Shown: positions 14,183 through 60,809 of the stretch, piece after piece
Layout of the letters: each line of letters opens with the position of its first letter
How positions within the stretch are numbered: the first letter of the stretch is position 1
From: Ruania zhangjianzhongii
GTDB taxonomy: Bacteria; Actinomycetota; Actinomycetes; Actinomycetales; Beutenbergiaceae
Reading direction: 5' to 3'
Length of the DNA: 64,000 nt
NCBI RefSeq assembly: GCF_008000995.1
Contig: NZ_CP042828.1
Coordinates: 992,001-1,056,000, forward strand
Translations under genes and position numbers: made by a program
Notes under the pieces: generated by a model
Database searches by the model: none
The model's input: the letters and a program-made list of their open reading frames with translations, nothing else
Told to the model about the DNA's origin: nothing

Positions 14183-14210
14183 GAGCGTGCGGACCGGTTA
14201 GCCTTCCTCA

Positions 14211-14849: not shown

Positions 14850-14867
14850 GAACGTCCCGACGGCGCA

Positions 14868-14884
14868 GCTCGCCTCGGGCGAGC
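14868..14884. terminator. Short GC hairpin after the LytR_C gene
   Basis: GCTCGCC and GGCGAGC (7 bp) flank TCG, 18 bases after the stop at 14849. There is no T-run. It would serve both the rightward gene and the convergent GH15-like gene. Confidence 0.45.
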
Positions 14885-14993
14885 GCCGCGCTGCCTGTCT
14901 GCGCTACGCGCTCCGGCCGGCGACGGCGCAGCTCACCGTGGCGGGCTCAGCTCGGCTGGCACTGCCGGTCCGGTTCGCTGGGCGTGGTTGGGG

Positions 14994-25209: not shown

Positions 25210-25485
25210 TCCCACCCCGAACCCCGGTACGGCGACGGTATCTGACCTGCCTTGCACCGGCCGTAGTTTCGCCGGACGCGACCTGGCCGGCCGAGCGAGT
25301 CGGCGGTGAGTGGTCCGGCTCGGCGAGGGGTCGCGAGGCCGCGAGAGTGCGCCTCCTGACCACTCAGTGAGACAAATCGGCACGTTCGCACACGAGTCTG
25401 GGGAGTGTGCCGAGAATGGCTACCGGCCGACGCCGGAGGCGCCCGATGCGGGCTCCGGTTCCTCTCGACGATGCAAGGAGTACAT
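25210..25485. other. Intergenic leader of the tctCBA operon
   Basis: 276 bases with no coding frame I trust. An in-frame extension of tctC covers its end but lacks a signal-peptide context. The operon promoter must lie here; I find no confident -35/-10 or operator palindrome. Confidence 0.4.
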
Positions 25486-26463
25486 GTGCGTACTACCCCG
25501 GGAACTGGGCGACGCTCTGCGGCACCGTGGATCGCTGCCGCCGTAGCCGTGGGCACGATCCTGTCCGGTTGCGGTGCGGCGGGCCCCTACCCCGACGGCA
25601 CAGTGGAGCTGATGATTCCGTGGTCGGCGGGCGGGGGATCCGACCTCTCGGCGCGGCTGTTCGTCAGCGAGCTCGAAGAGCCGCTGTCCGCCACCATCAG
25701 CCCGGCCAACGAGCCGGGCGCCAACGGTGCGATCGGGTGGGGAAGCCTGGCACAGGCGGACAACGACGGGTACTCCGTGGGCCTGCTCACCTACGACGTG
25801 CTGAGCAACGAGATCCTGGACCCGACCTCGCCCGCGCTGGAAGATTTCGACATCCTGGCCCAGTACGAGCAGCAGGAGCTGTACTTCTACGTTCCCAGCG
25901 ACAGCCCGTACGAGACGGCTGCCGACCTCGAGGGGAGCAACCTGACCGTCGGTACCTCCGGGATGGGCGGGATCGACCATCAGGCCCCGGCAGCCCTGGC
26001 CCGAGAGCTGGGGGTGGAGTGGGAGTACGTCCCGTTCGATGGTCAGGCCGACGGTCTGACCAACCTGCTCGGCGGAAACATCGATGCCTTCGTCTTCACC
26101 CCGACGGTCGCGGCCCAGTACGTCGAGGACGGGACGTTGCGCATCCTGGGGACCTTCGCCAGTGAGCGCACCGAGGAGTACCCGGACACAGCGACCTTCG
26201 TCGAGCAGGGGTACGACGTGCCCCCGATCGCGTCCTTCCGGGGAATCGCGGCACCGGCTGGGCTCGATGAGGAGGTCCGGGCCACTCTCGTGGAGGCGAT
26301 CGAGACCACGGCGCAGGACGAGGAGTATCTCGCCGCGGCTGCCGAGGCCGGGAACACGCCGCGGTACCGAACCGGTGAGGATTTCGAGGCGTACATGAAT
26401 GAGCTTCGGCCCACGATCGCCGACCTGCTGCAAGAGATGGGCCTCGCCCAGGCGGCCGGATGA
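25486..26463 (+). CDS. tctC: TctC/Bug-family solute-binding lipoprotein
   Basis: 325 residues from GTG 25486, with AAGGAG five bases upstream. A basic N-terminus, hydrophobic core and lipobox TILSGC make it a lipoprotein. The TctC (Bug) domain follows: VELMIPWSAGGGSDLSARLF, then NEPGANGAIGW and GTSGMGGIDHQAPA, the beta-strand and P-loop-like sites that hold carboxylates. It captures a carboxylated solute outside the membrane for the TctAB channel. An upstream ATG (25471) in frame is less likely. It is the first gene of a run that overlaps or nearly abuts through 30810. Confidence 0.92.
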   Translation: MRTTPGTGRRSAAPWIAAAVAVGTILSGCGAAGPYPDGTVELMIPWSAGGGSDLSARLFVSELEEPLSATISPANEPGANGAIGWGSLAQADNDGYSVGLLTYDVLSNEILDPTSPALEDFDILAQYEQQELYFYVPSDSPYETAADLEGSNLTVGTSGMGGIDHQAPAALARELGVEWEYVPFDGQADGLTNLLGGNIDAFVFTPTVAAQYVEDGTLRILGTFASERTEEYPDTATFVEQGYDVPPIASFRGIAAPAGLDEEVRATLVEAIETTAQDEEYLAAAAEAGNTPRYRTGEDFEAYMNELRPTIADLLQEMGLAQAAG

Positions 26464-27020
26464 GCGACGACGTCCGTGCGCCGGCAGCGACTGCACGACA
26501 CCCCGGACGCGGTCCCCGCAACGAGTCCGTGCTGAAGATCGCCTTCCCCGGCGTGCTGTTCGTCTTCTCCGTGGCCATCGTCGTGCAAGCGGTCCAGCTG
26601 ACCGGGCCACTCGCCGAGTCCAACGCGCAGCTGTATCCGATCGTGGTGGCGAGTCTGCTGGCTCTCGGTTCAGTGGTCTCCATCATCGGCGCGGTCCGCG
26701 GCACCGGCGAGCCGCTGCCGCACACCGTGGCCGCCGCGGGCACCGATGAGCCGGACGAGGCAGCAGAGCAGGACCGCGGCGGGCGTACCCGTGCGCTCGT
26801 GGTGCTGATCGCCAGTGTGGCGTACCCGCTGGCCATGCCCGTGCTCGGCTTTCACCTGACGACGGTGGTGTATGCGAGTGCACTGAGCTACCTGCTGCAG
26901 GAACGGTCCTGGCGCGGACGGGCGGTAGCCGCCGCCACCGGCGTGGGGATCACGCTCTTCTGCCACCTCACCTTCGTGCTGGTGCTGCAGGCCAGGTTGC
27001 CTACTGGGGTGATCTTCTGA
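26460..27020 (+). CDS. tctB: Tripartite tricarboxylate transporter small membrane subunit TctB
   Basis: 186 residues, ATG at 26460 overlapping the tctC stop (ATGA). It has four hydrophobic helices typical of TctB (about 24-45, 58-80, 105-130, 142-180) joined by an acidic loop rich in Asp and Glu. Together with TctA it forms the secondary-transport channel fed by TctC. Its stop overlaps the tctA start (TGATG). Confidence 0.85.
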   Translation: MSDDVRAPAATARHPGRGPRNESVLKIAFPGVLFVFSVAIVVQAVQLTGPLAESNAQLYPIVVASLLALGSVVSIIGAVRGTGEPLPHTVAAAGTDEPDEAAEQDRGGRTRALVVLIASVAYPLAMPVLGFHLTTVVYASALSYLLQERSWRGRAVAAATGVGITLFCHLTFVLVLQARLPTGVIF

Positions 27021-28522
27021 TGGAGCTGGCAGCCACGCTGGGCAACGTGTTCACGCCGGCAAGCCTGATGTGGATCGTCATCGGTGCCTCCGCCGGCATC
27101 ATCGTCGGCGTCATCCCCGGCCTGACCGCCACGGTGGCGATCGCGTTGCTGGTGCCGTTGACCCTCGACCTGGACCCGTTGCACTCGATGCTCATGCTGA
27201 CCGGGATCTTCGCCGGCAGCCAGTACTCCAACTCGATCACCTCGATCATGCTGCGTACCCCGGGCAACCCTGCCGGTGCGGTGACGATCTTCGATGGCTA
27301 CCCGATGGCGCTGAAGGGCGAGGCTGGCCGTGCCATCGGGCTGGGGGCGTGGGCGAGCGCCTTCGGCGGAATCTTCTCGGTGCTGGTGCTGTGGGCTTTC
27401 TCCCAGCTGTTGGCGAGCGTGGCGCTGAAATTCTCGCCGGTGGAGTACTTCTCCGTCGCGGTCCTCGGGCTGACCACTGCCGTCGCCGTCACCGGGACCT
27501 CGAAAGCCCGCAGCCTCACGGCGACCGCACTGGGGTTGCTGGTGGGAGTGATCGGCACCGACCCGCTGGTGAACCTGCCCCGGTTCACCTTCGGCCTGCC
27601 CGAGCTCCGGCTGGGGGTGCCGTTCCTGGCGGCGATCATCGGCGTGTTCGCGATGGCAGAGGTGCTGCGACTGGCCGAGGTCCCCGGCCGCAAGACCCGG
27701 ATGGTGACCACGATCGGACGGATCCTTCCCTCATGGGCGGATATCCGGCGCACCTTCCGGCCGGTCTTCCGCGGCTCGGTGATCGGCACGATCGTCGGCA
27801 TCCTGCCCGGCGGCGGTGGGGCGATGGCCTCCTTCATTGCCTACGGGGAGGCCAAGCGTGTCTCGAAGAAGCCGGAGGAGTTCGGCAAGGGGTCGATCGA
27901 GGGGCTCACCGCGCCGGACGCCGCCGGCAACGGGGTTGCCGGTGGTGCCATGGTGCCGCTGCTCAGCCTGGGCATTCCGGGCGACGCTGCCACTGCGGTG
28001 ATGCTCGGAGCGCTGGTCATCCAGGGGATCACCCCCGGTCCGGCACTGTTCGACGGCCGGGGAGCAGACCTGGTCTACCCCCTCTTTGCCGGGATGCTGC
28101 TGGCGAACGTCGCGATGCTGATCATGGGCCTGACCCTAGCCCGCCCGCTGGCCAGTGTGGCGCTGTTGCCCCGCAGTATCCTGCTTCCGGCGATCGCGAC
28201 CCTGTCCTTCACCGGCGCGTTCATCGCCACCGGGCAGACCTACCTGCTGTGGGTGACGCTGGTCTTCGGCGTGATCGGGTATCTGATGGTGCGGTTCGAC
28301 TATCCGGTCGCCGCCCTCGCTCTCGGCCTGGTGCTCGGGCCGATCCTGGAGTCCAACCTGCGCCGTGGGCTGATGCTGCACGACGGCGACGCTTCCGTCT
28401 TCCTCACTCGGCCCATCTCGGCAGTGCTGCTCCTCGCCGCCGTGGCGCTGCTGGTCGTGAGTATCTGGGGATCGCGGCGCTCCCGGAAAAAGGCGGCCGC
28501 CAAGGAGCTGAGCACAGTATGA
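27020..28522 (+). CDS. tctA: Tripartite tricarboxylate transporter large membrane subunit TctA
   Basis: 500 residues, mostly hydrophobic with about twelve helices. TctA signatures are visible: GVIPGLTATVAIALLVPLT, GSQYSNSITSIMLRTPGNP, GYPMALKGEAGRAIG and, in the second half, LTAPDAAGNGVAGGAMVPL with GIPGDAATAVMLGAL. It is the pore subunit of a cation-driven carboxylate importer. The 3' end overlaps the VOC gene (ATGA at 28519-28522). Confidence 0.95.
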   Translation: MELAATLGNVFTPASLMWIVIGASAGIIVGVIPGLTATVAIALLVPLTLDLDPLHSMLMLTGIFAGSQYSNSITSIMLRTPGNPAGAVTIFDGYPMALKGEAGRAIGLGAWASAFGGIFSVLVLWAFSQLLASVALKFSPVEYFSVAVLGLTTAVAVTGTSKARSLTATALGLLVGVIGTDPLVNLPRFTFGLPELRLGVPFLAAIIGVFAMAEVLRLAEVPGRKTRMVTTIGRILPSWADIRRTFRPVFRGSVIGTIVGILPGGGGAMASFIAYGEAKRVSKKPEEFGKGSIEGLTAPDAAGNGVAGGAMVPLLSLGIPGDAATAVMLGALVIQGITPGPALFDGRGADLVYPLFAGMLLANVAMLIMGLTLARPLASVALLPRSILLPAIATLSFTGAFIATGQTYLLWVTLVFGVIGYLMVRFDYPVAALALGLVLGPILESNLRRGLMLHDGDASVFLTRPISAVLLLAAVALLVVSIWGSRRSRKKAAAKELSTV

Positions 28523-29301
28523 GCACTCCGGGCACTGGCACCGGGATCTGCTTCGACCATGCCGTACTCGGAGTACGGGACCTGTCCGCGGCCACGGCTG
28601 CGCTCACCTCGGCCGGGCTGAGGTACGCCGGTGGCGGTGAGCACATCGGGCGGGGGACCGCCAACAGCCTGTTCGCGTTGGCCGAGGGATACCTGGAGCT
28701 GCTCACCGTCACCGATCCGGACCTCGCCCGGTCGCACTCGACGAACCGTGCCCAGGTGGCCGATGCCCTCGACACCCACGCGGCTCTTCCGCTCGGGTTC
28801 GCCTTCCAGGTGGCCGATGTTGCCGCAGCCGGGGAAGCGCTGCAGAAGTCCGGCCTGCGGGTCGAAGGGCCGGTGCCGATGTCCCGGCGAAACCCGGACG
28901 GCACCGTCCTGACCTGGCGAAACCTGTATGTCGGTACCACCCAGTGGCGCACCCTCCTGCCATTCCTGATCACCTGGGATGCCCCGCACGACCTGAGCGA
29001 TGCCGAGGCGCCCCGGCTGCACCGCCTGGAGCTGGCCGAGCCCGGCGACCCGGCCACCTCGCCCTCCGGCGGGTTGCCGGCTGCTGTGCACGGCTACCAC
29101 CAGCTCGGCGCCACCCAGAGCGCTCCTGACCGGCTCCGCCTGAGCGGGCTCGACCTGGTCTTCACCAGGCCGGAGGGGGCGGCAGGCGAAGGCCTGACCC
29201 GGATCCAGCTGGCCGGTGGGCACCGCCGAGGAGGTCTCGGCGGGCTCGAGGACTTTCTCACCTGGACCAGCCCGGGTCACGGCTCGTCCCACTCATCCTG
29301 A
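28519..29301 (+). CDS. VOC / glyoxalase-like domain protein
   Basis: 260 residues. The N-terminal half is a glyoxalase-like (Glyoxalase_3, PF13468) fold: FDHAVLGVRDLSAATAALTSAGLRY with metal-ligand His in the first strand, EGYLELLTV, and later FAFQVADVAAAGEAL with PDGTVLTWRNLYV. Such proteins isomerise, dioxygenate or simply bind small ligands using a divalent metal. The second half (about 150-260) is less conserved. Translational coupling to tctA suggests it acts on the imported compound. Confidence 0.75.
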   Translation: MSTPGTGTGICFDHAVLGVRDLSAATAALTSAGLRYAGGGEHIGRGTANSLFALAEGYLELLTVTDPDLARSHSTNRAQVADALDTHAALPLGFAFQVADVAAAGEALQKSGLRVEGPVPMSRRNPDGTVLTWRNLYVGTTQWRTLLPFLITWDAPHDLSDAEAPRLHRLELAEPGDPATSPSGGLPAAVHGYHQLGATQSAPDRLRLSGLDLVFTRPEGAAGEGLTRIQLAGGHRRGGLGGLEDFLTWTSPGHGSSHSS

Positions 29302-29351
29302 ACCACGCCGCCTCCGAGCGGCACCCGGCACCAACGAAGGGAAACATCACT

Positions 29352-30392
29352 GTGCCAGGCACTATGAATGCGCTCGTCCTGACCGAGCACGGCGGACTCG
29401 ACCAGCTCGCGGTGGTCTCCGACCACCCACGGCCGCAGCTCCGCGACGGGCATGTCGTGCTCAAGGTCACTGCCAGCGCGTACAACTACCACGACCTGTT
29501 CACGGTCAAGGGCATGCCCGGGATCAAGGTCCCGCTGCCGATCGTGCCGGGCCTGGACCTTGCCGGGGAGATCGCCGAGGTGGCCGAGGATGTCACCGGC
29601 TGGCGCGCCGGGGACCGGGTGCTGGTGCACCCCCGGCACCCGGAGAAGGGCCTGATGGGTGAGATGCTCGACGGAGGGATGGCCGAGTACGCGCTGGTCC
29701 ACGCCAGCCAGCTCATCCGGATCCCGGACGCGGTCAGCGACGTCCAAGCGGCTGCACTCCCGGTCGCCTACGGCACCGCCCACCGGATGATCATGGGCAA
29801 GGGCGAGATCAAGGCCGGCGACACGGTCCTGGTCCTCGGTGCCTCCGGCGGTGTCGGGACGGCCTCAGTCGTGCTGGCCAAGAAGCTCGGCGCGCATGTC
29901 ATCGCCGCCGCTGGTAGTGCCGAGAAGTGCCAGGCCCTGCTCGAGATCGGGGCCGACGAGGTGATCAACTACCGGGAGGAAGACTTCTACCAGTGGGTCA
30001 AGACCCACTACGGCAAGCCGCACCGGCTCACCGGGGAGGGCGGGGTCGACGTCGTCATCAACTTCACCGGCGGGGACACCTGGGCCCCCACACTACGAAG
30101 CGTGAAGCTCGGCGGCTCGATCCTGGTCTGCGGCGCCACGGCCGGGTACGACCCGAAGGAGGATCTGCGCTACATCTGGAGCTTCGAGCTACGGGTGATC
30201 GGCTCGAACAGCTTCCGCACCGAGGACTTCGAGGCACTGCTGCAGCTGTGTGCCACCGGTGAGCTCGACCCCCCGGTCAGTCATGTCCTCCCGCTGAGCG
30301 AGGCCGTGGAAGGCCTGCGCAAGGTCCGGGACCGGGAGGTCCTCGGCAAGATCGTGATCACCCCGTCCACCCAGGAGACCGACAATGTCTGA
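29352..30392 (+). CDS. MDR-family (quinone oxidoreductase-like) dehydrogenase
   Basis: 346 residues. The GroES-like N-terminal domain contains KVTASAYNYHDLFTVKG and PGLDLAGEIAEV. The Rossmann domain contains VLVLGASGGVGTASVVLAKKLGA, then ADEVINYREEDF. The structural-zinc cysteine cluster is missing, as in quinone reductases and enoyl reductases of the family. It probably uses NADPH on an alpha,beta-unsaturated carbonyl or acyl-CoA. GTG 29352 has AAGGGA upstream; ATG 29364 is an alternative. It is separated from the VOC gene by 50 bases and overlaps the thioesterase gene by 8. Confidence 0.85.
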   Translation: MPGTMNALVLTEHGGLDQLAVVSDHPRPQLRDGHVVLKVTASAYNYHDLFTVKGMPGIKVPLPIVPGLDLAGEIAEVAEDVTGWRAGDRVLVHPRHPEKGLMGEMLDGGMAEYALVHASQLIRIPDAVSDVQAAALPVAYGTAHRMIMGKGEIKAGDTVLVLGASGGVGTASVVLAKKLGAHVIAAAGSAEKCQALLEIGADEVINYREEDFYQWVKTHYGKPHRLTGEGGVDVVINFTGGDTWAPTLRSVKLGGSILVCGATAGYDPKEDLRYIWSFELRVIGSNSFRTEDFEALLQLCATGELDPPVSHVLPLSEAVEGLRKVRDREVLGKIVITPSTQETDNV

Positions 30393-30810
30393 GCAGCCCA
30401 CCCTGACCGCACCGGAACTGCAGCAGCGTCTGCGCGAGGCCCCCTTCCACGACTGGCTCGGCCTGGAGGTCCGCTCCGTCACCGACACGGGGTTGGAACT
30501 GACGGCGACGTGGCGTCCGGAGTGGGCGAACTCCGTCGGGAAGACCCACGGCGGCATCCTCAGCTCCTTGCTGGACCTGGCCGCCGACTGGGCACTGGTC
30601 GCGACCCAGGGCGTTCCGGCCCCGACGATCGACTTCACCGTGCACTACCTGCGGGCCGCCGCCCCGGGCGACCTCACCGTGCGTGCCCGGCTCGTGCGCG
30701 CCGGTCGTTCCCTGACGGTGGCGGAGGCCGAGGTCCTCGACGCCAGCGGGAAGACGCTGGCCGTGGGCCGGGGCACCTACGCTTCGTTCGCCACCCGGAA
30801 GAACGAGTAA
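30385..30810 (+). CDS. PaaI-type hotdog-fold thioesterase
   Basis: 141 residues with the hotdog PaaI signature: FHDWLGLEVRSV, WANSVGKTHGGILSSLLDLAADWAL, and a DFTVHYLRAA beta-strand. The Asp in SLLDLAAD matches the catalytic acid of the family. It would hydrolyse an acyl- or aryl-CoA, releasing CoA. The start overlaps the oxidoreductase end. Its presence suggests that part of the substrate is processed as a CoA thioester. Confidence 0.85.
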   Translation: MSEQPTLTAPELQQRLREAPFHDWLGLEVRSVTDTGLELTATWRPEWANSVGKTHGGILSSLLDLAADWALVATQGVPAPTIDFTVHYLRAAAPGDLTVRARLVRAGRSLTVAEAEVLDASGKTLAVGRGTYASFATRKNE

Positions 30811-30834
30811 GGGAACTGTTCCGGGCGGTCCCGG

Positions 30835-31614
30835 TCAGGTCGTCAGCACCTGCCGGATCTCGTCCCAGAAGCCGGTGACGTGAGCGCGGGCGGCGCCTTC
30901 CGCCGCATCGCGATCACCCTCGAGCACCGCGGTGAGCAGGCCGCGGTGCTCGTCGACGGCTTCGTCGAGCCGGTGCACCTGCGCCAGTCCGAGGAACCAG
31001 AGCCGCAGGCTCAGGGTGAGGTACTCGGACAGCGAGGCCTGGAGGTAGCGGTTGTGGGTGGCGTGGTGCACGCAGTGGTGCACGCGCTGGTCCAGCCGGA
31101 TCAGCCCGCGCTGGCCTTCGGCACCGGAACCCAGGTCGGCGAGCAGCCGGGAGGCGTTCTCCCGGTCCGCGGGATCGGCACGTTCGACGGCGAGCCGGGC
31201 CGCCAGCCCCTCGAGCTCGACCCGCACCTCCGAGACGCGCGCCAGGTCGCGCACCTCCACCGGAGCGACGACGGTCCCGCGCCGAGCGTAGATCGCGACC
31301 AGCCCCTCGTCAGCCAACCGCCGGAGCGCTTCGCGCACGGGAGTACGCCCGAGGTGGAGTCGCGCCATCAGGTCCCGTTCGTCCAGAGCGGTACCTGGCG
31401 CCAGCTCGAGCGTGACGATCAGGTCGCGGAGGTGGAAGTAGGCGACAGCGGAGCGGGACTCGATCGGCGCGCCCGGCGGGGGCGGGACGGTCAGGTCGGC
31501 AAGGGCGGTCTGATCGGTCCACGAGGAGGCGGTCGGCGGCTGAGCCGTCGGCGCGGGAGGCAGGCGGGCTGCCGGAGTGGTCGCCGGCCCGGCATCGGGT
31601 TCCGTTCGAACCAT
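30835..31614 (-). CDS. GntR-family regulator with FCD ligand domain
   Basis: 259 residues. After a Pro-rich N-terminus of about 60 residues (unusual for the family) comes a winged helix, SAVAYFHLRDLIVTLELAPGTALDERDLMARL and GRTPVREALRRLADEGLV, then an all-helical FCD domain whose metal/ligand His residues are visible (HHCVHHATH, DEHRGLLTAV). FCD regulators bind small carboxylates. It lies between the two catabolic operons, divergent from the flavin demethylase gene, with a palindrome at 31631-31653 between the starts. Confidence 0.92.
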   Translation of the reverse strand: MVRTEPDAGPATTPAARLPPAPTAQPPTASSWTDQTALADLTVPPPPGAPIESRSAVAYFHLRDLIVTLELAPGTALDERDLMARLHLGRTPVREALRRLADEGLVAIYARRGTVVAPVEVRDLARVSEVRVELEGLAARLAVERADPADRENASRLLADLGSGAEGQRGLIRLDQRVHHCVHHATHNRYLQASLSEYLTLSLRLWFLGLAQVHRLDEAVDEHRGLLTAVLEGDRDAAEGAARAHVTGFWDEIRQVLTT

Positions 31615-31630
31615 GGCCAACACCTCTCTC

Positions 31631-31653
31631 CTGATATATCTTGAGAGTATCAG
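31631..31653. promoter_or_regulatory. Palindromic operator between GntR gene and demethylase gene
   Basis: Inverted repeat CTGATA (31631-31636) and TATCAG (31648-31653) with an AT-rich centre (TATCTTGAGAG). It lies 17 bases before the GntR start codon and 20 before the demethylase start, a natural position for the FCD regulator to control itself and the divergent gene. Confidence 0.7.
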
Positions 31654-31673
31654 GGCTGGTCGAGGAGGACGCC

Positions 31674-34178
31674 ATGGCACAGTTGCCGGAGCGAGCGGAC
31701 GTCGTCGTCATCGGAGCGGGAGTGGTCGGCAACTCCGTGGTGCACCATCTGGCCGACCAGGGCTGGCGCAACCTCGTCCTGCTCGACAAGGGACCGTTGC
31801 CCGACCCTGGCGGATCCACGGGGCACGCCTCGAACTTCGTGTTCCCGGTGGACCACTCCAAGGAGATCACCGATCTCACCGTGGACTCGATGCGCCAGTA
31901 CGCCGAACTGGGCGTGCTCACCGCCTGCGGTGGTATCGAGGTGGCCCGATCGACCGAGCGCGCCCAGGAGCTGCGCCGCCGGATGACCTCCGCCCGGTCC
32001 TGGGGCATCGAGGCGGAGCTGCTGACTCCTCGGCAGATCAAGGACCTGGTGCCGTACTGCGACACCGACCTGCTGGTCGCCGGCTTCCACACCCCCACCG
32101 GCGCGATCGTGGACCCGGTACGGGCCGGGGCCCTGATGCGCGAGCAGGCCGAGCAGCTCGGCGCGCTCACCGTCTGCGCCGAGACCGAGGTGGTCGACCT
32201 CGCGGTCTCCGGCGGCCGGGTGCGCAGCGTCGTCACCGACCGGGGCGCCATCGAGACCGAGATCGTGGTGGTGGCCTGCGGGGTCTGGAGCTCGGCCGTG
32301 GCCGCGCTGGCCGGTGCGCGTATCCCGCTCACCCCGGCAGTGCACCAGATGATCGACGTCGGGCCGATCCCGGAGCTGGAAGCCAGCGGGGAGTGGATCG
32401 GCTTCCCCCTGGTGCGGGACATGGACTGCCTGATGTACGAACGGCAACGGGGCGCGAATCTGGAGATCGGGTCCTACGCCCACCGACCCATCCTGCACAG
32501 CCCGGGTCAGATCCCCCCGGTCGGGGCGCCCGGCCAGGAGAGCCCGACCAGCTTCCCGTTCACCGCTGAGGACTTCGCGCCGCAGCTGCGCCAGGCCCAG
32601 GAGCTCTTTCCCGGCCTGCTCGGCGGGCCCACCCCGCAGCCGCACAAGGCGTTGAACGGACTGCTCTCCCTCACCCCCGACGGCGGACCGCTCCTCGGCG
32701 AAACCCCGGAGGTCGCCGGACTGTGGTCAGCCGCAGCAGTGTGGATCAAAGAGGCGCCCAGCGTCGGACGGATGATCGCACAATGGCTCACCGAGGGATC
32801 GACCGACATCGATCTGCACAGTGCGGATATCTCCCGGTTCTACCCGCACGCCCGCACCGAGGCGCACGTGCGCGCCCGCACCGCCGAGGGCTTCGGCAAG
32901 ATCTACGGCATCACCCACCCGCGCGAGCAGTGGCTGAGCAACCGGCCGGTGCGCACCAGCCCGTTCCACCCCCGCACCAGCGCACTCGGCGCGGTGTACT
33001 TCGAAGCCGGCGGCTGGGAACGCCCGCAGTGGTATGAGGCCAATGCCGGTCTGGTCCAGGAGTACGCGGCCTGGATCCCGCAACGCAGCGCCGAGTGGGA
33101 CGCGCGCTGGTGGTCGCCGATCATCGAGGCGGAGCATCTGGCGATGCGGGACCGGGTGGCGATGATCGACCTGAGTGCCTTCGCCGTGTTCGACGTCACC
33201 GGAGCGGGCGCGCTCGGCTATGTGCAGCGGATGGCGATGGCCCAGGTCGACCGGCCCATCGGGCGCGGTATCTACACCCCGCTGCTCGCGCCCGACGGCG
33301 GGTTCCGTTCCGACCTGACGATCGTGCGCCGGGGCGAGCAGGACTTCCGGATCATCACCGGCGGCGCCGACGGTGCACGGGACCTAGCCTGGTTTCGGGC
33401 GCACCTCCCGGCCGACGGCTCGGTCCACCTGGTCGACATGACCTCAGCGGTGTGCACGGTCGGCATCTGGGGCCCGCGGGCGCGCGAGGTGGTGGCCGGG
33501 CTCACCGACGACGACGTCAGCGACGCCGGATTCGGCTTCGGGACCGCACGGGACGTGGTGCTCGGTGGCCTGCCGGTCTCGATGCTGCGCATCTCCTACG
33601 TCGGTGACCTCGGCTGGGAGATCCACGCGCCCACGGAGTATGGACTCCAGCTCTGGGACCTGCTCTGGGAGGCGGGCGAGCGCCACGGGATGATCGCCGC
33701 CGGGATCGGCGTCTACGGCACCACCGGCCGCCTGGAGAAGGCGCACCGGCTGATGGGTGCGGAGCTGACCGGGGAGTACAACCCGGTGGAGGCGGGCCTG
33801 GCACTGCCGCGGGTGAAGAACCCGGAATTCATCGGGAAGGCGGCCTATCTGGCCGCCCGCGAGGCGGCACCGGCGGCCACACTGTGCACGCTGGCGCTGG
33901 ACCCGGGGGCGGGCCGGTTCATGACCGGGAATGAACCGATCCTCACCCGGAGTGGGGAGCCGATCGTCGACGGCGTAGGTCGCCGGTCGTACGTCACCTC
34001 AGCCGGGCCCGCGCCCTCGCTGGGCAGATATCTGTTGCTCGCGTACCTGCCGCCGGAGCATGCCGTCGCCGGCGGTGAGCTGCTGGTGGAGTATCTCGGC
34101 GACCGGTACCCGGTGACCGTCCTGACCGTGGGACGCACCGCCCCCTTCGACCCTGACCTGGCCCGGGTGAAGGGATGA
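31674..34178 (+). CDS. FAD-dependent oxidoreductase / GcvT fusion (dimethylglycine-sarcosine dehydrogenase type)
   Basis: 834 residues in the four-part layout of dimethylglycine and sarcosine dehydrogenases. A DAO domain starts with VVVIGAGVVGNSVVHHLADQG; the GGSTGHASN segment has His51 where relatives attach FAD covalently. An FAO_M middle domain follows (about 370-440), then a GcvT domain from about 480 (EHLAMRDRVAMIDLSAFAVFDVTG) and a GcvT C-terminal barrel. The flavin part would oxidise an N-methyl group and the GcvT part pass it to tetrahydrofolate as methylene-THF. The substrate is unknown. GAGGAGGA lies before ATG 31674; a TTG farther upstream is inside the operator and was rejected. 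Confidence 0.9.
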   Translation: MAQLPERADVVVIGAGVVGNSVVHHLADQGWRNLVLLDKGPLPDPGGSTGHASNFVFPVDHSKEITDLTVDSMRQYAELGVLTACGGIEVARSTERAQELRRRMTSARSWGIEAELLTPRQIKDLVPYCDTDLLVAGFHTPTGAIVDPVRAGALMREQAEQLGALTVCAETEVVDLAVSGGRVRSVVTDRGAIETEIVVVACGVWSSAVAALAGARIPLTPAVHQMIDVGPIPELEASGEWIGFPLVRDMDCLMYERQRGANLEIGSYAHRPILHSPGQIPPVGAPGQESPTSFPFTAEDFAPQLRQAQELFPGLLGGPTPQPHKALNGLLSLTPDGGPLLGETPEVAGLWSAAAVWIKEAPSVGRMIAQWLTEGSTDIDLHSADISRFYPHARTEAHVRARTAEGFGKIYGITHPREQWLSNRPVRTSPFHPRTSALGAVYFEAGGWERPQWYEANAGLVQEYAAWIPQRSAEWDARWWSPIIEAEHLAMRDRVAMIDLSAFAVFDVTGAGALGYVQRMAMAQVDRPIGRGIYTPLLAPDGGFRSDLTIVRRGEQDFRIITGGADGARDLAWFRAHLPADGSVHLVDMTSAVCTVGIWGPRAREVVAGLTDDDVSDAGFGFGTARDVVLGGLPVSMLRISYVGDLGWEIHAPTEYGLQLWDLLWEAGERHGMIAAGIGVYGTTGRLEKAHRLMGAELTGEYNPVEAGLALPRVKNPEFIGKAAYLAAREAAPAATLCTLALDPGAGRFMTGNEPILTRSGEPIVDGVGRRSYVTSAGPAPSLGRYLLLAYLPPEHAVAGGELLVEYLGDRYPVTVLTVGRTAPFDPDLARVKG

Positions 34179-34199
34179 GCGTGCGGCGCGATTCCATCG

Positions 34200-34259
34200 G
34201 AACCCCCTTGGCGCATGGGAACCTGGTGACACCGTGGTTCCTCTCCGCCAAGGGGGTTC
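34200..34259. promoter_or_regulatory. Nested hairpin that embeds the cyclodeaminase ribosome binding site
   Basis: Outer arms 34200-34213 and 34246-34259 pair perfectly over 14 bp. Inside, GGAACC (34218-34223) pairs with GGTTCC (34236-34241), and GGTG/CACC (34225-34228, 34230-34233) closes the tip. The 3' outer arm contains AGGGGG (34251-34256), which is 7 bases before GTG 34264. Folded RNA would hide that site, so this may be an attenuator or translational switch; it could also be a terminator for the upstream gene. Confidence 0.75.
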
Positions 34260-34263
34260 GAAT

Positions 34264-34785
34264 GTGGGTGACCGGATGAGGGACGAGTCGGTCGCCGAGG
34301 TGCTGGCGCAGATGGCCTCCGGCGCGCCGGGTCCGTCCGCCGGGTCGGCGGCGGGTCTCGCCGCCGCGATGGCTGCGGCCCTGGTGGCGAAAACGGCGCG
34401 GCTCTCCGGCCGCCAGCTCGCCGCCGCCGACGAGCTCGCTGACGCCGACGAGCTCGCCGAGGAAGCAGACACCTGGCGCGAGCGGGCACTGGCGCTGGCC
34501 GAGGCCGATGCCGCAGGCGTCCGGGCGCTACTGACCTCCGGCACTGACGCTCCGACCGACCCGAGTGCGATCCCGGCCCAGATCGGCGAGGTGGCCGCCG
34601 CTGTCGAACGGCTCGCCGCGACCCTGGCCGAGCAGGGCAACCCCCGCCTGCACGCTGACGCCGTCGCCGCCGGGCAGCTGGCGGGCGCCGCCGGCATCAG
34701 CATCGACGCCATCCTGCGCAGCAATGCTGGCGCACCCGGTGCACCGCTCGATTCCACCGACCCGCACGCCGGCGAGCCCGGCTGA
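34264..34785 (+). CDS. Cyclodeaminase/cyclohydrolase-like folate enzyme (FchA/FTCD C-domain family)
   Basis: 173 residues, all helical. The family signature is SGAPGPSAGSAAGLAAAMAAALVAKTARLS, split around the folate-binding Gly-rich turn, then helices with ADAAGVRALLTSG and NPRLHADAVAAGQLAGAAGISIDAI. Relatives convert methenyl-THF to formyl-THF (FchA) or deaminate formimino-THF. The C-terminus is shorter than usual. In this island a methenyl-THF cyclohydrolase role fits between MetF and formate-THF ligase. The start is GTG 34264 by ribosome-site spacing; ATG 34276 is the alternative. Confidence 0.75.
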   Translation: MGDRMRDESVAEVLAQMASGAPGPSAGSAAGLAAAMAAALVAKTARLSGRQLAAADELADADELAEEADTWRERALALAEADAAGVRALLTSGTDAPTDPSAIPAQIGEVAAAVERLAATLAEQGNPRLHADAVAAGQLAGAAGISIDAILRSNAGAPGAPLDSTDPHAGEPG

Positions 34786-34835
34786 ACCGGCGGAACCCAC
34801 AGAACCCATTTGACCCGCTGAACCCACTGAACCGC
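34782..34835. repeat. Six imperfect tandem 9-bp units
   Basis: Consensus CTGAACCCA, starting at the stop codon of the cyclodeaminase gene: 34782, 34791, 34800, 34809, 34818, 34827. The 9-bp period keeps reading frame. Probably slippage-derived; it may extend or shorten the C-terminus in relatives. Confidence 0.75.
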
Positions 34836-34919
34836 TTGGCACGGTGACGTACGCAGCACACCGGCGGCTGCGCCGTCGGCCGGATGAGCGTGCACAGGAG
34901 CGGCGCCGGTACGGCCCTC

Positions 34920-35696
34920 TCAGGACTGTGCGACGACCGGCTGGTAGCCCATCCGCCGGGAGATGGCTTCGCCCGCCCGCGCGACGGTGACCGCTGCCTC
35001 CGGCAGCCGCTCGGGACTGAGTCGGTAGGTCGGGCCCGCCACGCTGATCGCGGCGATCACCGCGCCGTCGTGCCCGCGGATCGGCGCGGCGACCGCGTTC
35101 AGGCCGGTCTCCAACTCCTCGACGGCGGTGGCCCACCCGGTCTCTCGCACCGTCTGTAGCTCGCGGCGCAAGTCCGCCGCGGAGGTGAGAGTGTGCTCGG
35201 TGAAGCGCTCCAGCGGGGCGGTGAGCCGTCCGTCGCGCTCCTCGTCGTCGAGATGAGCAAGCAGGACCTTGCCGCTGGAGGTGGCGTGCAACACCGTGCG
35301 TTGCCCCACCCAGTTCTGCATCGCGACGGTGCTCGTTCCCTCTGCCTGGCAGACGTTCGTGGCTGCCTCCCCGGTCAGGACGGCGACGTTGACGGTCTCG
35401 CCGAGCTCCTCGGCCAGGCCGTCGCAGACCGGTTGTGCCTGCGTGGTCACATCGAGTCGGGACGCCGTCGCACCGGCGAGCCGGAGGAGGCCGACGCCGA
35501 GCCGGACCCGCCGGGTGTCGGCCAGGCGTTCGACGAGCTCGTGCCCGGAGAGCGCCGTGATCAGCCGGGAGGCGGTGGAGCTGTGCACGCCGAGCTCTCG
35601 GGCGACCTCGGCCACGCCGGCCTCACCCTCGCGCGCCAGCAGCTCCAGCACCTGCACCGCTCGGTCGACCGACTGCACCGATCCCGTGTCTCGCAT
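34920..35696 (-). CDS. IclR-family transcriptional regulator
   Basis: 258 residues. The N-terminal winged helix reads SVDRAVQVLELLAREGEAGVAEVARELGVHSSTASRLITAL, and the C-terminal GAF-like effector domain contains NVCQAEGTSTVAMQNWVGQRTVLHATSSGKVLLAHL. IclR proteins control degradation of aromatic and small organic acids. It is divergent from the GcvT-like demethylase gene; a pair of direct repeats (35742-35772) lies between them, suggesting it governs the gcvT-metF-fhs operon. Confidence 0.93.
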   Translation of the reverse strand: MRDTGSVQSVDRAVQVLELLAREGEAGVAEVARELGVHSSTASRLITALSGHELVERLADTRRVRLGVGLLRLAGATASRLDVTTQAQPVCDGLAEELGETVNVAVLTGEAATNVCQAEGTSTVAMQNWVGQRTVLHATSSGKVLLAHLDDEERDGRLTAPLERFTEHTLTSAADLRRELQTVRETGWATAVEELETGLNAVAAPIRGHDGAVIAAISVAGPTYRLSPERLPEAAVTVARAGEAISRRMGYQPVVAQS

Positions 35697-35741
35697 GGCT
35701 CTGAGAGTAGTCCCGTTGCGGCCCAGTCGTGCAGTAAATGA

Positions 35742-35772
35742 TGCGCAATACGCACGCCCTTGCGCTATACGC
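35742..35772. promoter_or_regulatory. Direct-repeat pair, candidate IclR operator
   Basis: TGCGCAATACGC (35742-35753) and TGCGCTATACGC (35761-35772) differ at one base and are spaced 19 bp start to start, about two helical turns. They lie between the divergent IclR gene and the GcvT-like gene. Confidence 0.65.
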
Positions 35773-35834
35773 TCCACGGGGGAGACACTGGGGCACGGGA
35801 CCACCTGGTGGCCGTGGCTGAATCGGAGGCAATG

Positions 35835-37064
35835 ATGTCCGTGCACACCCACCCAGAAATTCTTCTCTACCCGCGCATCCGCAAGTCCCCGTTCTTCTAC
35901 GCCTCTCGGCGTCATGGGGTCGCGATGTACAGCGTCTACAACCGCACCTATCACCCCCGTCACTACGGCGACCCGGTGGCGGAGTACTGGGCGCTGCTGA
36001 ACGGCGTCACCCTGTGGGACGTCGGTGTCGAACGGCAGATCGAGATCACCGGTCCGGACGCCTTCGACTTCACCAACCTGCTCGTCACCCGCGACCTGTC
36101 CACCTGCCAGGTAGGTCAGTGCAAGTACGTCTTCCTCACCGACGACGATGGCGGCATCCTCAACGACCCGGTGCTGCTGCGGCTCGGCGAGAACCACTTC
36201 TGGCTCTCCCTGGCGGACAGCGACATCCTGCTCTGGGCCCGCGGCGTGGCCTACCGCTCCGGATTCGACGTGCAGATCCGCGAGGCCGATGTTGCTCCGG
36301 TCCAGGTCCAGGGCCCGAAGTCGGCCGCAGTCATGCGGGATCTCTTCGGTGATGCCGTGCTCGACATCGGCTACTACTACCTGCACGAGTTCACCCTCGA
36401 CGGCCTCGAGGTGATTGTTTCCCGGACCGGGTACACCGCTGAGCTCGGCTATGAGATCTACGTGCGGGATGCGAGTCTGCATGCGATGCGGGTCTGGGAC
36501 CTGATCTGGCAGGCGGGCCAGCCGCACGGGCTGCAGGTCATCGGCCCCTGTCATATCCGCCGGATCGAGGGCGGAATCCTCGCCCACGGCTGCGATATCA
36601 CCTTCGACACCAACCCGTTCGAAGTGGGGATGGGTTATGACTGGATGGTCAGCCTGGACAAGGCGGGCGACTTCATCGGCAAGGAGGCGCTGACCCGGAT
36701 CCGGGCCGAAGGCCCCCGCCGCAAGCTCGCCGGGGTGGAGATCGGCGGTCCGTCGCTGGGTTCCTTCAACGACGGCTCGATGATCGACGTCTACGGCGTC
36801 CACCACGACGGCCGGCGAGTCGGGGAGGTGACCTCGGCGTGCTACTCGCCCCGGCTGGAGAAGAACATCGGTTACGCGATGGTCCCGGTCGAACTCACTG
36901 CACTCGGCACCGCGCTGACGGTGGACACCGGAAGCGAGGTGAGAGACGCTGTCGTCGTGGCCAAGCCGTTCATCGATCCGACCAAGGAGCAGCCCAAGCA
37001 GGACGTCAACTCCCTGGTAGCCGCGGGTACGGCGGCCGCGGACCCGGCGGCGCGCCAGGTCTGA
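35835..37064 (+). CDS. GcvT-family THF-dependent demethylase (DmdA/LigM-like aminomethyltransferase)
   Basis: 409 residues. It is a stand-alone GcvT-fold protein with TLWDVGVERQIEITGPDAFDFTNLL, the strand CKYVFLTDDDGGILNDPVLLRL, DSDILLWARGVAY, VQVQGPKSAAVMRDLFG and SRTGYTAELGYEIYV. These features match THF-dependent demethylases such as DMSP demethylase DmdA and vanillate O-demethylase LigM better than true glycine-cleavage GcvT; no gcvH or gcvP is near. It would move a methyl group from an S-, O- or N-methyl donor to THF. GGAGG is five bases before ATG 35835. metF and fhs follow at once, the order found in ligM-metF-ligH. Confidence 0.82.
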   Translation: MSVHTHPEILLYPRIRKSPFFYASRRHGVAMYSVYNRTYHPRHYGDPVAEYWALLNGVTLWDVGVERQIEITGPDAFDFTNLLVTRDLSTCQVGQCKYVFLTDDDGGILNDPVLLRLGENHFWLSLADSDILLWARGVAYRSGFDVQIREADVAPVQVQGPKSAAVMRDLFGDAVLDIGYYYLHEFTLDGLEVIVSRTGYTAELGYEIYVRDASLHAMRVWDLIWQAGQPHGLQVIGPCHIRRIEGGILAHGCDITFDTNPFEVGMGYDWMVSLDKAGDFIGKEALTRIRAEGPRRKLAGVEIGGPSLGSFNDGSMIDVYGVHHDGRRVGEVTSACYSPRLEKNIGYAMVPVELTALGTALTVDTGSEVRDAVVVAKPFIDPTKEQPKQDVNSLVAAGTAAADPAARQV

Positions 37065-37065
37065 C

Positions 37066-37961
37066 ATGCTCGCCCGGCGGCGTCTGCCACGCTCATCGAG
37101 ACGGTGGGCCGACGCGATGGCGGGCGAGCCGCACTTCGAGGTGATCCCGCTCCCGGGCATCGAGGACGAGATCGAGGAGTACCTGCCCGCCCGTGCGACG
37201 GTCACCGTGACCGCGTCGCCGCGCCAGGGACTGGCAGCGACCCTCGAGCTCACCACCCGGCTCGCCCTGCGGGGCATCGACGCCGTCCCGCACCTGGCCG
37301 CGCGCCAGGTGCGGGATGTCGCGGGGCTGCGGGGCATCCTGCGGGACCTCGATGCCGCCGGAGTTCGTGAGGTGTTCGTGATCGGCGGTGACCAGAAGGA
37401 GCCCGTCGGTGACTTCGGCAGCGCACTGGAGCTGCTCCGGGCGATGCAGGGCATCGGACACGAGTTCACTGTGGGGATCGCCGGTTACCCGGAGACGCAC
37501 CCGATGATCATCGACGACGTCGCTGTGCAGGCGATGTGGGACAAGCAGGTGCACGCGTCCTATCTCGTCAGCCAGATGACCTTCGACGCCCGGGTGCTGC
37601 TCGAGTGGGTCCGGCGGCTGCGCCGGCGCGGCATCACCTTGCCCGTCCGGGTCGGTGTCGCCGGGCCGGTCGGCACGGCGCGGTTGCTCCGGGTGGGGGC
37701 CAAGGTCGGGGTCGGGGACTCGCTCCGGGTACTGAGCAAGCACCGCGGTGTGCTGCGGCACCTGTCCGGGACCTGGACGCCCGCTCGCCTGCTCGAGGAC
37801 CTCACCCCGGCGTTCGCCGACCCGGGCTACGGCCTGGCCGGCGTGCACGTGTACACCTTCAACGCGTTGGCCCGACCGCCCAGTGGTGGCAGCAGGCGAC
37901 CAGTCAGCGGTCCGGCTGGGCGGTCGATGGCGGGCCGGTGGACCACACACCAGGGAGATGA
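37066..37961 (+). CDS. metF: Methylenetetrahydrofolate reductase-like protein (MetF), probable frameshift near its 3' end
   Basis: TIM-barrel MetF domain: HFEVIPLPGIEDEIEEYLP, REVFVIGGDQKEPVGDFGSA, VGIAGYPETHP, SYLVSQMTFDA and VRVGVAGPVG. In this setting it would oxidise methyl-THF to methylene-THF. The frame stays open into fhs, but past about 37874 it turns Arg/Gly/Ser-rich. One base shift gives LARTAQWWQQATSQRSGW and a TGA at 37959-37961, just before the fhs ribosome site. The end I give assumes that shift; without it, this is a MetF-formate-THF ligase fusion ending at 39678. ATG 37066 is two bases after the gcvT-like stop; ATG 37117 is an alternative start. Confidence 0.75.
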
Positions 37962-37965
37962 ACAG

Positions 37966-39678
37966 ATGGCACAGACCACCACGACACCGGGGAACCTGGA
38001 GATCGCACGCGGTGCAGCACTGCAGCCGATCGAGGAGGTCGCCGCCGGAATGGGGCTGGGTCCGCACCTGCTGGAGCACTACGGGCGCGGGGTGGCGAAG
38101 ATCGACCTCGCGGCGATCGAGGAGGTGGCCGACCGTCCGCCGGCCAAGTACATCGTCGTCAGCGCGATCACGCCGACACCTCTGGGCGAGGGCAAGACGA
38201 CTACCACTGTCGGTCTGGGGCAGGGGCTCGCCCGCACCGGCCGCCGGGCGACGATCGCGATCCGGCAGGCCTCGATGGGCCCCACGCTGGGGATCAAGGG
38301 CGGGGCCGCCGGCGGCGGGTACAGCCAGGTGGTGCCGATGGAACGGCTGAACCTCCATCTCACCGGGGACATGCATGCGGTCACCGCTGCGCACAACCAG
38401 CTCGCCGCGATGATCGACAACGAGCTGTTCCGCGGCAACCCGCTCGGGATCGACCCGGATGCCGTCAGCTGGCGGCGCGTGCTGGACGTCAATGATCGTG
38501 CGCTGCGGGACATCGTCACCGGGCTGGGCCCGCGCACGAACGGCCCGCCCCGGCAGACCGGGTTCGACATCACCGCAGCCTCGGAGCTGATGGCCACTCT
38601 GGCGATGGCCACCTCGCTGCGCGATCTGCGCGAACGTCTCGGCCGGACCGTGGTCGGCTTCACCCGGGACGGTGGTGAACCGGTGACGGCGGAGCAGATC
38701 CGCGCCGCCGGTGCGATGACGGTGCTGCTGCGCGAAGCGCTCAAACCGAACCTGCTGCAGACCCTGGAGAACACCCCCGCTCTGGTGCACGCCGGGCCGT
38801 TCGGGAACATTGCCACGGGCAATTCTTCGGTGGTGGCGGACCTGATCGGGATCCGGACCGGGGACTACCTCGTCACCGAGGCCGGGTTCGGTGCAGACAT
38901 GGGCGCCGAACGCTTCTTCAACATCAAGTGCCGGGTTTCCTCTCTGGTGCCTGACGCCGGCGTGGTGGTCGCCACCGTGCGGGCGCTGAAGGTGCACTCC
39001 GGCCGGCACACCGTGGTTGCCGGGCGCCCGTTGCCTACCGAGCTGCTGGCCGAGAACCCCGACGACGTCTACGCCGGCGGGGACAACCTGCGTGCGCAGA
39101 TCGCGAACATCCGCCGGCACGGGGTCACCCCGGTAGTGGCGATCAACGCCTTCGGTGGTGACTACGCCTCCGAGCACGAGGCGATCCGGGCCATCGCAGC
39201 CGAGGCAGGGGTGCGGTGCGCGCTGTCCACGCACTTTTCCGAGGGTGGCGCCGGGGCGGTCGAGCTGGCCGAAGCGGTAGCCGAGGCAGCCGAGGAACCG
39301 AGCGAGTTCCATCACCTCTACCCGGCCGAGGCGGGGCTGCGGGAGAAGATCGAGACCATCGCCACGCAGGTCTACGGCGCCGACGGTGTGGAGTACTCGA
39401 CGGTCGCGGCCCGCTCGCTGGACCTGTTCGAGCGCAGCGGGTGGGGGGATCTGCCGATCTGCATGGCCAAGACCCACCTGTCCCTGTCTGCGGATCCGAC
39501 TCTACGCGGCGCTCCGACCGGGTGGACGTTGCCCGTGCGGGAGGTGCGCGCCTCGGTCGGCGCGGGCTTCATCTACCCGATCTGCGGGCAGATGCAGACG
39601 ATGCCCGGCCTCGGTTCGGACCCGGCTGCCGTCCATATCGACATCAACGACGACGGCGAGACGGTCGGCCTGTTCTGA
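37966..39678 (+). CDS. fhs: Formate-tetrahydrofolate ligase
   Basis: 570 residues, the normal length of the family. The P-loop TPLGEGKT is at 71-78, followed by QASMGPTLGIKGGAAGGGYSQV, NLHLTGDMHAV and EAGFGADMGAERFFNIKCR. It joins formate and THF with ATP; here the reverse direction would yield formate and ATP from formyl-THF. Its own ATG 37966 has AGGGAG at 37952-37957, which argues for separate translation even though the frame is open upstream into metF. Confidence 0.93.
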   Translation: MAQTTTTPGNLEIARGAALQPIEEVAAGMGLGPHLLEHYGRGVAKIDLAAIEEVADRPPAKYIVVSAITPTPLGEGKTTTTVGLGQGLARTGRRATIAIRQASMGPTLGIKGGAAGGGYSQVVPMERLNLHLTGDMHAVTAAHNQLAAMIDNELFRGNPLGIDPDAVSWRRVLDVNDRALRDIVTGLGPRTNGPPRQTGFDITAASELMATLAMATSLRDLRERLGRTVVGFTRDGGEPVTAEQIRAAGAMTVLLREALKPNLLQTLENTPALVHAGPFGNIATGNSSVVADLIGIRTGDYLVTEAGFGADMGAERFFNIKCRVSSLVPDAGVVVATVRALKVHSGRHTVVAGRPLPTELLAENPDDVYAGGDNLRAQIANIRRHGVTPVVAINAFGGDYASEHEAIRAIAAEAGVRCALSTHFSEGGAGAVELAEAVAEAAEEPSEFHHLYPAEAGLREKIETIATQVYGADGVEYSTVAARSLDLFERSGWGDLPICMAKTHLSLSADPTLRGAPTGWTLPVREVRASVGAGFIYPICGQMQTMPGLGSDPAAVHIDINDDGETVGLF

Positions 39679-47977: not shown

Positions 47978-48460
47978 ATGGCGGACCAGGTGCAGGCGAC
48001 GGTGATCACGGTCTCGGACCGGTGCGCCCGGGGAGACCGGGAAGACCGGTCCGGACCCGAGGCAGCACGCCGCCTCACCGAGGCTGGATACGCCGTGGGG
48101 CCAGTGGTGGTGATCCCGGACGGCGAGCTGTCCGTGGCCGAAGCGATCACCGCCGCAGTATCCTCCGGCGCCCGGCTGGTGCTGACCAGCGGCGGCACCG
48201 GGGTGGCCCCGCGTGACCTGACCCCGGAGGGCACCCGCCGCGTGCTGGACCGAGTGCTGCCGGGGGTGGCCGAGGAGATCCGCCGGCGAGAGGTCGCCAG
48301 CGTGCCCACCTCCGCGCTCGGGCGTGGTCTGACCGGCACCTGTGGGCGGGCGTTCGTGGTGAACGCCCCCGGGTCGCTCGGTGGGGTGAGCACCGCGGTC
48401 GAGGTCATCCTTCCGCTGATTCCGCACGTGCTCTCCCAGGTCGACGGCGGTGACCACTGA
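47978..48460 (+). CDS. moaB: MoaB/MogA-family molybdopterin adenylyltransferase
   Basis: 160 residues. It has VITVSDRCARGDREDRSGPE, LVLTSGGTGVAPRDLTPEGT (the molybdopterin-binding GGTG loop) and FVVNAPGSLGGVSTAVEVILP. The family adenylylates molybdopterin before metal insertion. First gene of moaB-moaE, the stop overlapping moaE (TGATG). Confidence 0.92.
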   Translation: MADQVQATVITVSDRCARGDREDRSGPEAARRLTEAGYAVGPVVVIPDGELSVAEAITAAVSSGARLVLTSGGTGVAPRDLTPEGTRRVLDRVLPGVAEEIRRREVASVPTSALGRGLTGTCGRAFVVNAPGSLGGVSTAVEVILPLIPHVLSQVDGGDH

Positions 48461-48885
48461 TGGTCGTCGCGCTCACCTCGATCTCGGCTACTGATCTCGA
48501 TCTGGCCGAGCACCTGGACGCAGTCAGCGGGTCAGAACAGGGCGCGCTGACCAGTTTTGTCGGCACAGTGCGCGACCACAGCCCGGACGCCGCCGGCACC
48601 GTCACCCACTTGGAGTATGTCGCCCACCCGGACGCCGAGGCGGTCCTGGGCCGGATCGCTGCCGAGGTCGCTGCCGGGTACCCGGAGGTGACGTTGGCAG
48701 CCAGCCACCGGACCGGCACCGTGGCCGTGGGCGGGCTGGCGATCGTGGTCTGCGCCGGCTCAGCGCACCGGGTTGATGTGTTCGACGCCTGCCGTCAGCT
48801 CGTGGAGCGGATCAAGGCCGAGCTGCCGATGTGGAAGAAGCAGGTGCTGACCGACGGGTCGCACACCTGGGTGGGATCGGCATGA
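48460..48885 (+). CDS. moaE: Molybdopterin synthase large subunit MoaE
   Basis: 141 residues. It has GALTSFVGTVRDHSPD, LEYVAHPDAEAVL, ASHRTGTVAVGGLAIVV and the catalytic-lysine region MWKKQVLTDGSHTWVG. With thiocarboxylated MoaD it turns cPMP into molybdopterin. MoaD is encoded separately at 51655-51891 on the other strand. Confidence 0.95.
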   Translation: MVVALTSISATDLDLAEHLDAVSGSEQGALTSFVGTVRDHSPDAAGTVTHLEYVAHPDAEAVLGRIAAEVAAGYPEVTLAASHRTGTVAVGGLAIVVCAGSAHRVDVFDACRQLVERIKAELPMWKKQVLTDGSHTWVGSA

Positions 48886-48940
48886 GCGCGCACCGCGCCG
48901 ACCGCGCCGCACCCGCACCCAGCCCCGCACCCAGCCCCAT

Positions 48941-49004
48941 CGGAATCCACTTAGACCCTCGGAATCCAGTTGCACCTGAATTCCGAGGCTGGAAGTGGAT
49001 TCCG
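48941..49004. repeat. Array of 19-bp units, copy B
   Basis: Rightward units 48941-48959 (CGGAATCCACTTAGACCCT) and 48960-48978, then a leftward unit 49004 to 48986 (CGGAATCCACTTCCAGCCT) and a diverged one before it. Same core and spacing as 45680-45781. It lies in the moaE-moaA gap, ending 47 bases before the moaA ribosome site. Confidence 0.85.
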
Positions 49005-49063
49005 AGGCATGCGCCCGCTGTCCGGGCGACGCGTGCGCCGGTCGCCGGCAAAGGAAGGACATC

Positions 49064-60796: not shown

Positions 60797-60809
60797 CGGG
60801 GTCGACGCA

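Follow-up and report, generated by a model that had tools for sequence, protein, structure and literature searches.

A DmdA-related protein of the GcvT family lies in a recurrent, folate-linked gene module of Ruania zhangjianzhongii with a probable role in betaine demethylation

The window analysed here is a stretch of 64,000 nucleotides of Ruania zhangjianzhongii (contig NZ_CP042828.1, positions 992,001 to 1,056,000; G000:C2:992001-1056000) from a genome of 5.1 Mb, and its subject is a block of genes in which two proteins with GcvT-family domains accompany enzymes of tetrahydrofolate (THF) metabolism. The block begins with a GntR/FCD regulator gene (30835..31614, minus strand; Pfam), divergent from a plus-strand gene (31674..34178) for a flavoprotein related to dimethylglycine oxidase and dimethylglycine dehydrogenase (DMGO/DMGDH), a fusion of the domains DAO, FAO_M, GCV_T and GCV_T_C designated here as the DMGO1 type (Pfam, PDB entry 1pj5). 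This is followed by a gene for an FTCD_C protein (34276..34785, plus strand; PF04961), weakly similar to the methenyl-THF cyclohydrolase FchA, and by an IclR-family regulator gene (34920..35696, minus strand; BhcR-like, below cut-off), divergent from a gcvT-like gene (35832..37064, plus strand). The last two genes, both on the plus strand, are metF (37117..37961), whose product is proposed to be of the methyl-THF-oxidising type, and fhs (37966..39678), encoding a formate-THF ligase proposed to work in the direction of formate and ATP. From models, tree and gene context, the gcvT-like gene product is a candidate THF-dependent betaine demethylase, and the block from 31674 to 39678 is probably a module for betaine demethylation and methyl oxidation. 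An original prediction, made from the DNA sequence alone, had described these genes, together with genes for a TctCBA importer, a VOC protein, an MDR oxidoreductase and a thioesterase, as one catabolic island that passes methyl groups to folate and recovers ATP as formate, and all genes it named were found close to where it had placed them.

Among the named models, the GcvT-like protein scores best on that of the dimethylsulfoniopropionate (DMSP) demethylase DmdA (NF009133) with 339.4 bits, below the cut-off of 410; the true DmdA of Phaeobacter inhibens (L144), with which it shares 36.6% identity, reaches 600.3 bits on the same model. Its scores are also below the cut-offs for GcvT (NF001567, 181 vs 300; TIGR00528, 140.6 vs 235.85), for the trimethylamine N-oxide demethylase Tdm (230 vs 1100) and for LigM (NF047885, 43.3 vs 580, with coverage of residues 52-240 only). 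In a tree of 43 rows, built without a LigM row and flagged by the program for long branches in its outer part, the protein is placed with a support of 95/98 in a clade of 23 rows, called here the window clade, which comprises proteins from actinobacteria, Halomonas, one member of the Ectothiorhodospiraceae and one Chloroflexi bin. This clade is apart from the rows of GcvT, Tdm and true DmdA (P. ubique, Phaeobacter), and hence the protein does not group with glycine-cleavage T proteins. The SKQ motif, shared by all three rows of true DmdA and by the proteins of loci L143 and L146, is replaced by YTAE in the window protein, with T or S, then A, G or S, and then E as the pattern of the clade. By these comparisons, the GcvT-like protein is a member of an uncharacterised DmdA-related branch. 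Identity as a true DmdA is ruled out by cut-off, motif and tree, that as a glycine-cleavage T protein by cut-offs and tree, and that as a LigM-like aromatic demethylase by score and coverage, and of the earlier description as DmdA/LigM-like only the first half is retained.

The best PDB match of the flavoprotein is dimethylglycine oxidase 1pj5 (555.5 bits, 38% identity), whose domain order DAO, FAO_M, GCV_T and GCV_T_C is kept, and all of His48, His225, Tyr259 and Asp552 of 1pj5, functional residues of that oxidase, are retained. At 38% identity the flavoprotein may be an oxidase of dimethylglycine, as predicted from its family, or may act on another substrate. In genome G004, from the same genus, the flavoprotein gene is split across two frames (L016 14080-16649). 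Genes resembling etfB and etfA by eye were observed downstream of the window-type flavoprotein gene in loci L207, L208, L209 and L212, which suggests a dehydrogenase that passes its electrons to an electron transfer flavoprotein, and a family scan of one such gene (NCBIfam, E 1e-25) returned no family. The FTCD_C protein exceeds the cut-off of PF04961 (50.3 bits vs 24.5) and is below that of the FchA model NF045657 (32.8 vs 275); its gene is rare, being found in only six of the 80 related loci. Methylene-THF dehydrogenase FolD, said originally to be the only enzyme missing from a complete path, is indeed absent from the block, but it is encoded elsewhere in the window genome.

Fhs exceeds the cut-off of its model NF010030 (775.9 bits vs 652), while MetF is far below that of canonical MetF (TIGR00676, 62.8 vs 293.7) and is closest in the PDB to 7xg9 (131 bits), presumably the MetF of Sphingobium. 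The Sphingobium enzyme oxidises methyl-THF (PMC12585457). In the window, metF and fhs share a single open frame (37066-39678), a feature not remarked upon in the original prediction. In 34 relatives compared with adjacent metF and fhs, the two genes occupy distinct frames, with a stop codon separating them or falling at their junction, and the homologous end of metF in the window continues in another frame up to a stop at 37961, with the shift located in the region 37800-37966. Because the relatives have metF and fhs in separate frames and the window metF end continues in the other frame, the single frame is, on this comparison, the result of a frameshift towards the 3' end of metF, and the same two facts rule out a conserved MetF-Fhs fusion. 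The gcvT match of the window genome is likewise split over two frames (G000:C2:2615740-2616494; L003, L004), possibly due to assembly indel errors or to a broken gene.

Recurrence of the gene set was assessed using the best 80 of 120 relatives of the GcvT-like protein from one scan, and genes within 6 kb were counted for the 70 of these loci with flanks of 6 kb or more in both directions. A full-length DMGO/DMGDH-like flavoprotein gene was found in 59 of the 70, metF in 60, fhs in 54, SoxA in 27, SoxB in 30 and an FTCD_C gene in 6. Over all 80 loci, close dimethylglycine oxidase relatives with 49-55% identity to 1pj5 are encoded at 27, of which 22, with identities of 50-55%, also have SoxA, and flavoproteins of the DMGO1 type (22 loci) and of the Halomonas type (15 loci) are never accompanied by SoxA. 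Co-occurrence was further surveyed in 297 genomes of the same order, where a DmdA-like gene is present in 20 of the 24 genomes that encode the DMGO1 type and in 7 of the 273 that do not (Fisher 1.4e-21, kin not being independent; at genus level, 4/6 vs 1/89). The 27 DmdA-like genomes of the order comprise 11 with a member of the window clade (71-100% identity) and 16 with a second subfamily (45-49%). Four genomes (G054, G069, G146 and G211) have the flavoprotein without a DmdA-like gene, and stops interrupt the DmdA-like match in G144 and G170, which belong to the genus of G067 and have no window-type flavoprotein, and also in G253, which has one. Thus, the gene set of the right block recurs in a manner not attributable to chance, and the module is genuine and widely conserved.

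The proposed pathway would begin with the DmdA-related protein moving one of the methyl groups of a quaternary N-methyl osmolyte onto THF; with glycine betaine, the most likely substrate, the products would be dimethylglycine and 5-methyl-THF. The second step would be oxidation of the tertiary amine, with formation of methylene-THF, by the DMGO-like flavoprotein, as judged by its family and the residues it conserves, and in a third step the unusual MetF would oxidise methyl-THF to methylene-THF. FolD, perhaps with the help of the FTCD_C protein, would then convert methylene-THF to formyl-THF, from which Fhs would finally release formate with a gain of ATP. As 22 of the 80 loci combine candidates for each of the three demethylation steps, glycine betaine is the most parsimonious substrate for the clade as a whole. 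The methyl-to-formate path of the original prediction is retained, as a predicted one, for 31674-39678 and is dropped for TctCBA, the VOC protein, MDR and thioesterase, and its carboxylate with both N-methyl and other methyl groups gives way to a simpler reading, namely a betaine that loses its N-methyl groups successively.

In Ruegeria pomeroyi, an fhs double mutant was unable to grow on glycine betaine as the sole carbon source, according to PMC4744692. For removal of the first methyl group from glycine betaine in bacteria, PMC12478193 names GbcAB, Bhmt and the cobalamin-dependent MtgBC(D), and known routes to dimethylglycine are covered in PMC12093977 as well. The aerobic catabolism with GbcAB, DMGO or DgcAB, and SoxBDAG resembles the present loci in the DMGO-like gene, in SoxA at the 22 loci mentioned and in the oxidation of methyl groups on THF, but its first step is an oxygenation, whereas here it would be a methyl transfer to THF, and the window genome has no match to PF00848 (the GbcA type), MTTB or SoxD. 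The MtgBCD route of R. pomeroyi also brings a glycine betaine methyl group to THF, as described in PMC12478193, but is a three-protein cobalamin system, and MTTB was found in 1 of 40 carriers. Aminomethyltransferases encoded beside betaine transport genes or metF, SAR11_1303 and SAR11_1265, are comparable by context, and PMC3160333 postulates that SAR11_1303 takes part in the metabolism of glycine betaine. A search of titles and abstract openings in the open-access literature found no published report of a folate-dependent betaine demethylase. It is a tentative proposal, falling somewhat short of an even chance, that many actinobacteria and Halomonas begin the breakdown of glycine betaine by an additional route, with a small folate-dependent demethylase of the GcvT superfamily that is independent of oxygen and cobalamin and has related subfamilies beside metF on haloarchaeal plasmids. 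If this is true, such an enzyme, dependent on folate only, would work without oxygen and without producing formaldehyde, the methyl group would be conserved as ATP through Fhs, and a function would be given to DmdA-related proteins now annotated just as glycine cleavage T-like.

Several findings weigh against betaine demethylation by this module. A flavoprotein match of the required length is lacking at 16 of the 80 loci, five of which have SoxA; some of the 16 have a fragmented gene or a short contig, and L027, L035, L041 and L054 have no match. The window block shows no betaine transporter gene, the flavoprotein is just 38% identical to the known dimethylglycine oxidase, and SoxD is absent from 11 of the 15 genomes with the DMGO1 type that were tested, including that of the window. 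In Phaeobacter and Loktanella, plasmid-borne relatives of 52-53% identity (L138, L139 and L140) adjoin genes for acyl-CoA synthetase and enoyl-CoA hydratase. Genes of the GbcA type also occur in carriers: M. suaedae (L204) has, about 11 kb from the DmdA-like gene, one that is GbcA-like (375 bits against a cut-off of 670) in a sox region that also encodes a dimethylglycine oxidase relative with 64% identity to 1pj5, in Saccharopolyspora hirsuta a GbcA-like frame (216 bits, below cut-off) is situated in a second sox-DMGO-BCCT region, and in Halomonas ramblicola a PF00848 match is near another sox set. With GbcA-like or PF00848 genes coexisting in several carriers, the DmdA-like gene is ruled out as a universal replacement of GbcA.

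Elsewhere among the carriers, 13 of 34, L052 not being among them, have no PF00848 match and none of these 13 has MTTB, and in the set of 40 carriers SoxD is absent from 14 and BCCT is present in 37. In G118 and G116, without PF00848 and MTTB and with no search for BHMT made there, the sole SoxD is in the DmdA-like locus. The window genome has one BCCT, distant from the block, and its only PF02574 match, in a frame of 1185 amino acids, was read as MetH. A constant betaine transporter beside the gene is ruled out, as a single query each for BCCT, proV and OpuAC gave matches at only two of the 80 loci: L081 has proV and OpuAC (both over cut-off) and a permease (below cut-offs) downstream of metF, and L073 has, also downstream of metF, a BCCT gene and a gene matching the N-methyl-L-tryptophan oxidase model (both over cut-off), a model of the monomeric sarcosine oxidase family.

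For the window's own branch, proline betaine or another betaine with two N-methyl groups is a serious alternative, because the window genome, which holds candidates for the first and second demethylation steps, has no SoxD for the third. On such a substrate, the DmdA-like protein would act first and the DMGO1-type flavoprotein would remove the remaining N-methyl group, leaving no need for a sarcosine oxidase, which accords with the scarcity of SoxD in DMGO1-type genomes, with the absence of SoxA from all 22 DMGO1-type loci and with the divergence of the flavoprotein from dimethylglycine oxidase. On the other side, four of the 15 DMGO1-type genomes do have SoxD, the block shows no gene specific to proline, and clusters of the same clade with close DMGO relatives and SoxA point to glycine betaine. 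Dimethylglycine oxidase is also able to act on sarcosine, and for the sarcosine step the window genome has 41 DAO matches, monomeric sarcosine oxidase not having been searched for by a model of its own. In sum, a two-methyl betaine as the substrate of the window group is rather unlikely, while deserving to be kept in view.

Much less probable is a branch of DMSP demethylases that would convert DMSP to methylmercaptopropionate and methyl-THF. DmdA (PDB 3tfh; P. inhibens L144; literature in PMC5395565 and PMC7487153) is, like the window protein, a single small protein of the GcvT family with THF as the acceptor expected from the family, and it provides the closest named model. The plasmid loci L138, L139 and L140, with their CoA ligase and hydratase genes and with Lrp and OsmC in the same gene sets, offer a DMSP-like setting. 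Against DMSP stand the score under the DmdA cut-off, the motif and the separate clade, and the usual partner of the clade, which is an N-methyl flavoprotein. DmdA-related proteins of haloarchaea (40-44% identity) are encoded near metF, folD-like and BCCT genes in L149, near metF, FAD oxidoreductase and ring-hydroxylating oxygenase genes in L142, and near none of these genes in L148.

The left part of the original island is an operon on the plus strand, tctC-tctB-tctA-VOC-MDR-hotdog thioesterase (25471..30810; Pfam), whose six genes overlap or almost abut. TctC, TctB and TctA exceed their Pfam cut-offs, and the VOC protein corresponds to Glyoxalase_3. That the whole of 25471-39678 serves a single pathway for one imported carboxylate is highly improbable, despite the gene order being kept in a second Ruania genome, G007, the window's nearest relative for the right block, in which all six left genes are also present (L234). 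G004 has the right block without the left and without a VOC match, TctA and TctC are in none of the 80 related loci, and VOC, MDR and PaaI/thioesterase matches occur together in one of them, L066, which is taken to be from the same genome as G007 and whose stretch stops short of the tct genes. Transcription would in addition be interrupted by the divergent GntR and IclR genes. Of 99 genomes searched, two encode the VOC protein, namely G000 and G007, both Ruania, and the search for it yielded no further genome that might carry the left operon without the right block. On the basis of G004, the 80 related loci and the VOC distribution, one pathway for the entire interval is rejected. Because the left genes do not travel with the right block across relatives, the two blocks are read as separate units that adjoin in two species, with the left operon outside the methyl module. 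The single catabolic island is accordingly abandoned, and independent occurrence of the halves, which the original prediction named as refuting it, is observed for the right one.

Aromatic O-demethylation as by LigM-MetF-LigH of Sphingobium, the parallel drawn originally, agrees with the block in the order demethylase, metF, fhs and in the MetF type, yet is the least probable of all, since the demethylase is far under the LigM cut-off with partial coverage and its partner is a DMGO-like flavoprotein.

Some features are unrelated to the module. Downstream in the window, at 47978-50080, 56292-57548 and 58914-61970, are a MoaA-type radical SAM gene and a ThiF/rhodanese (MoeB-like) gene, both identified by Pfam, and neighbours that by eye resemble further genes for the molybdenum cofactor and for an ABC transporter of the molybdate type. 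At 16589-21574, an LPXTG-anchored surface protein of 1661 residues has five long Rib domain matches. Next to the Saccharopolyspora cluster in locus L040 is a gene pair (13944-15157) that encodes a DddA-like deaminase and then an Imm1 immunity protein.

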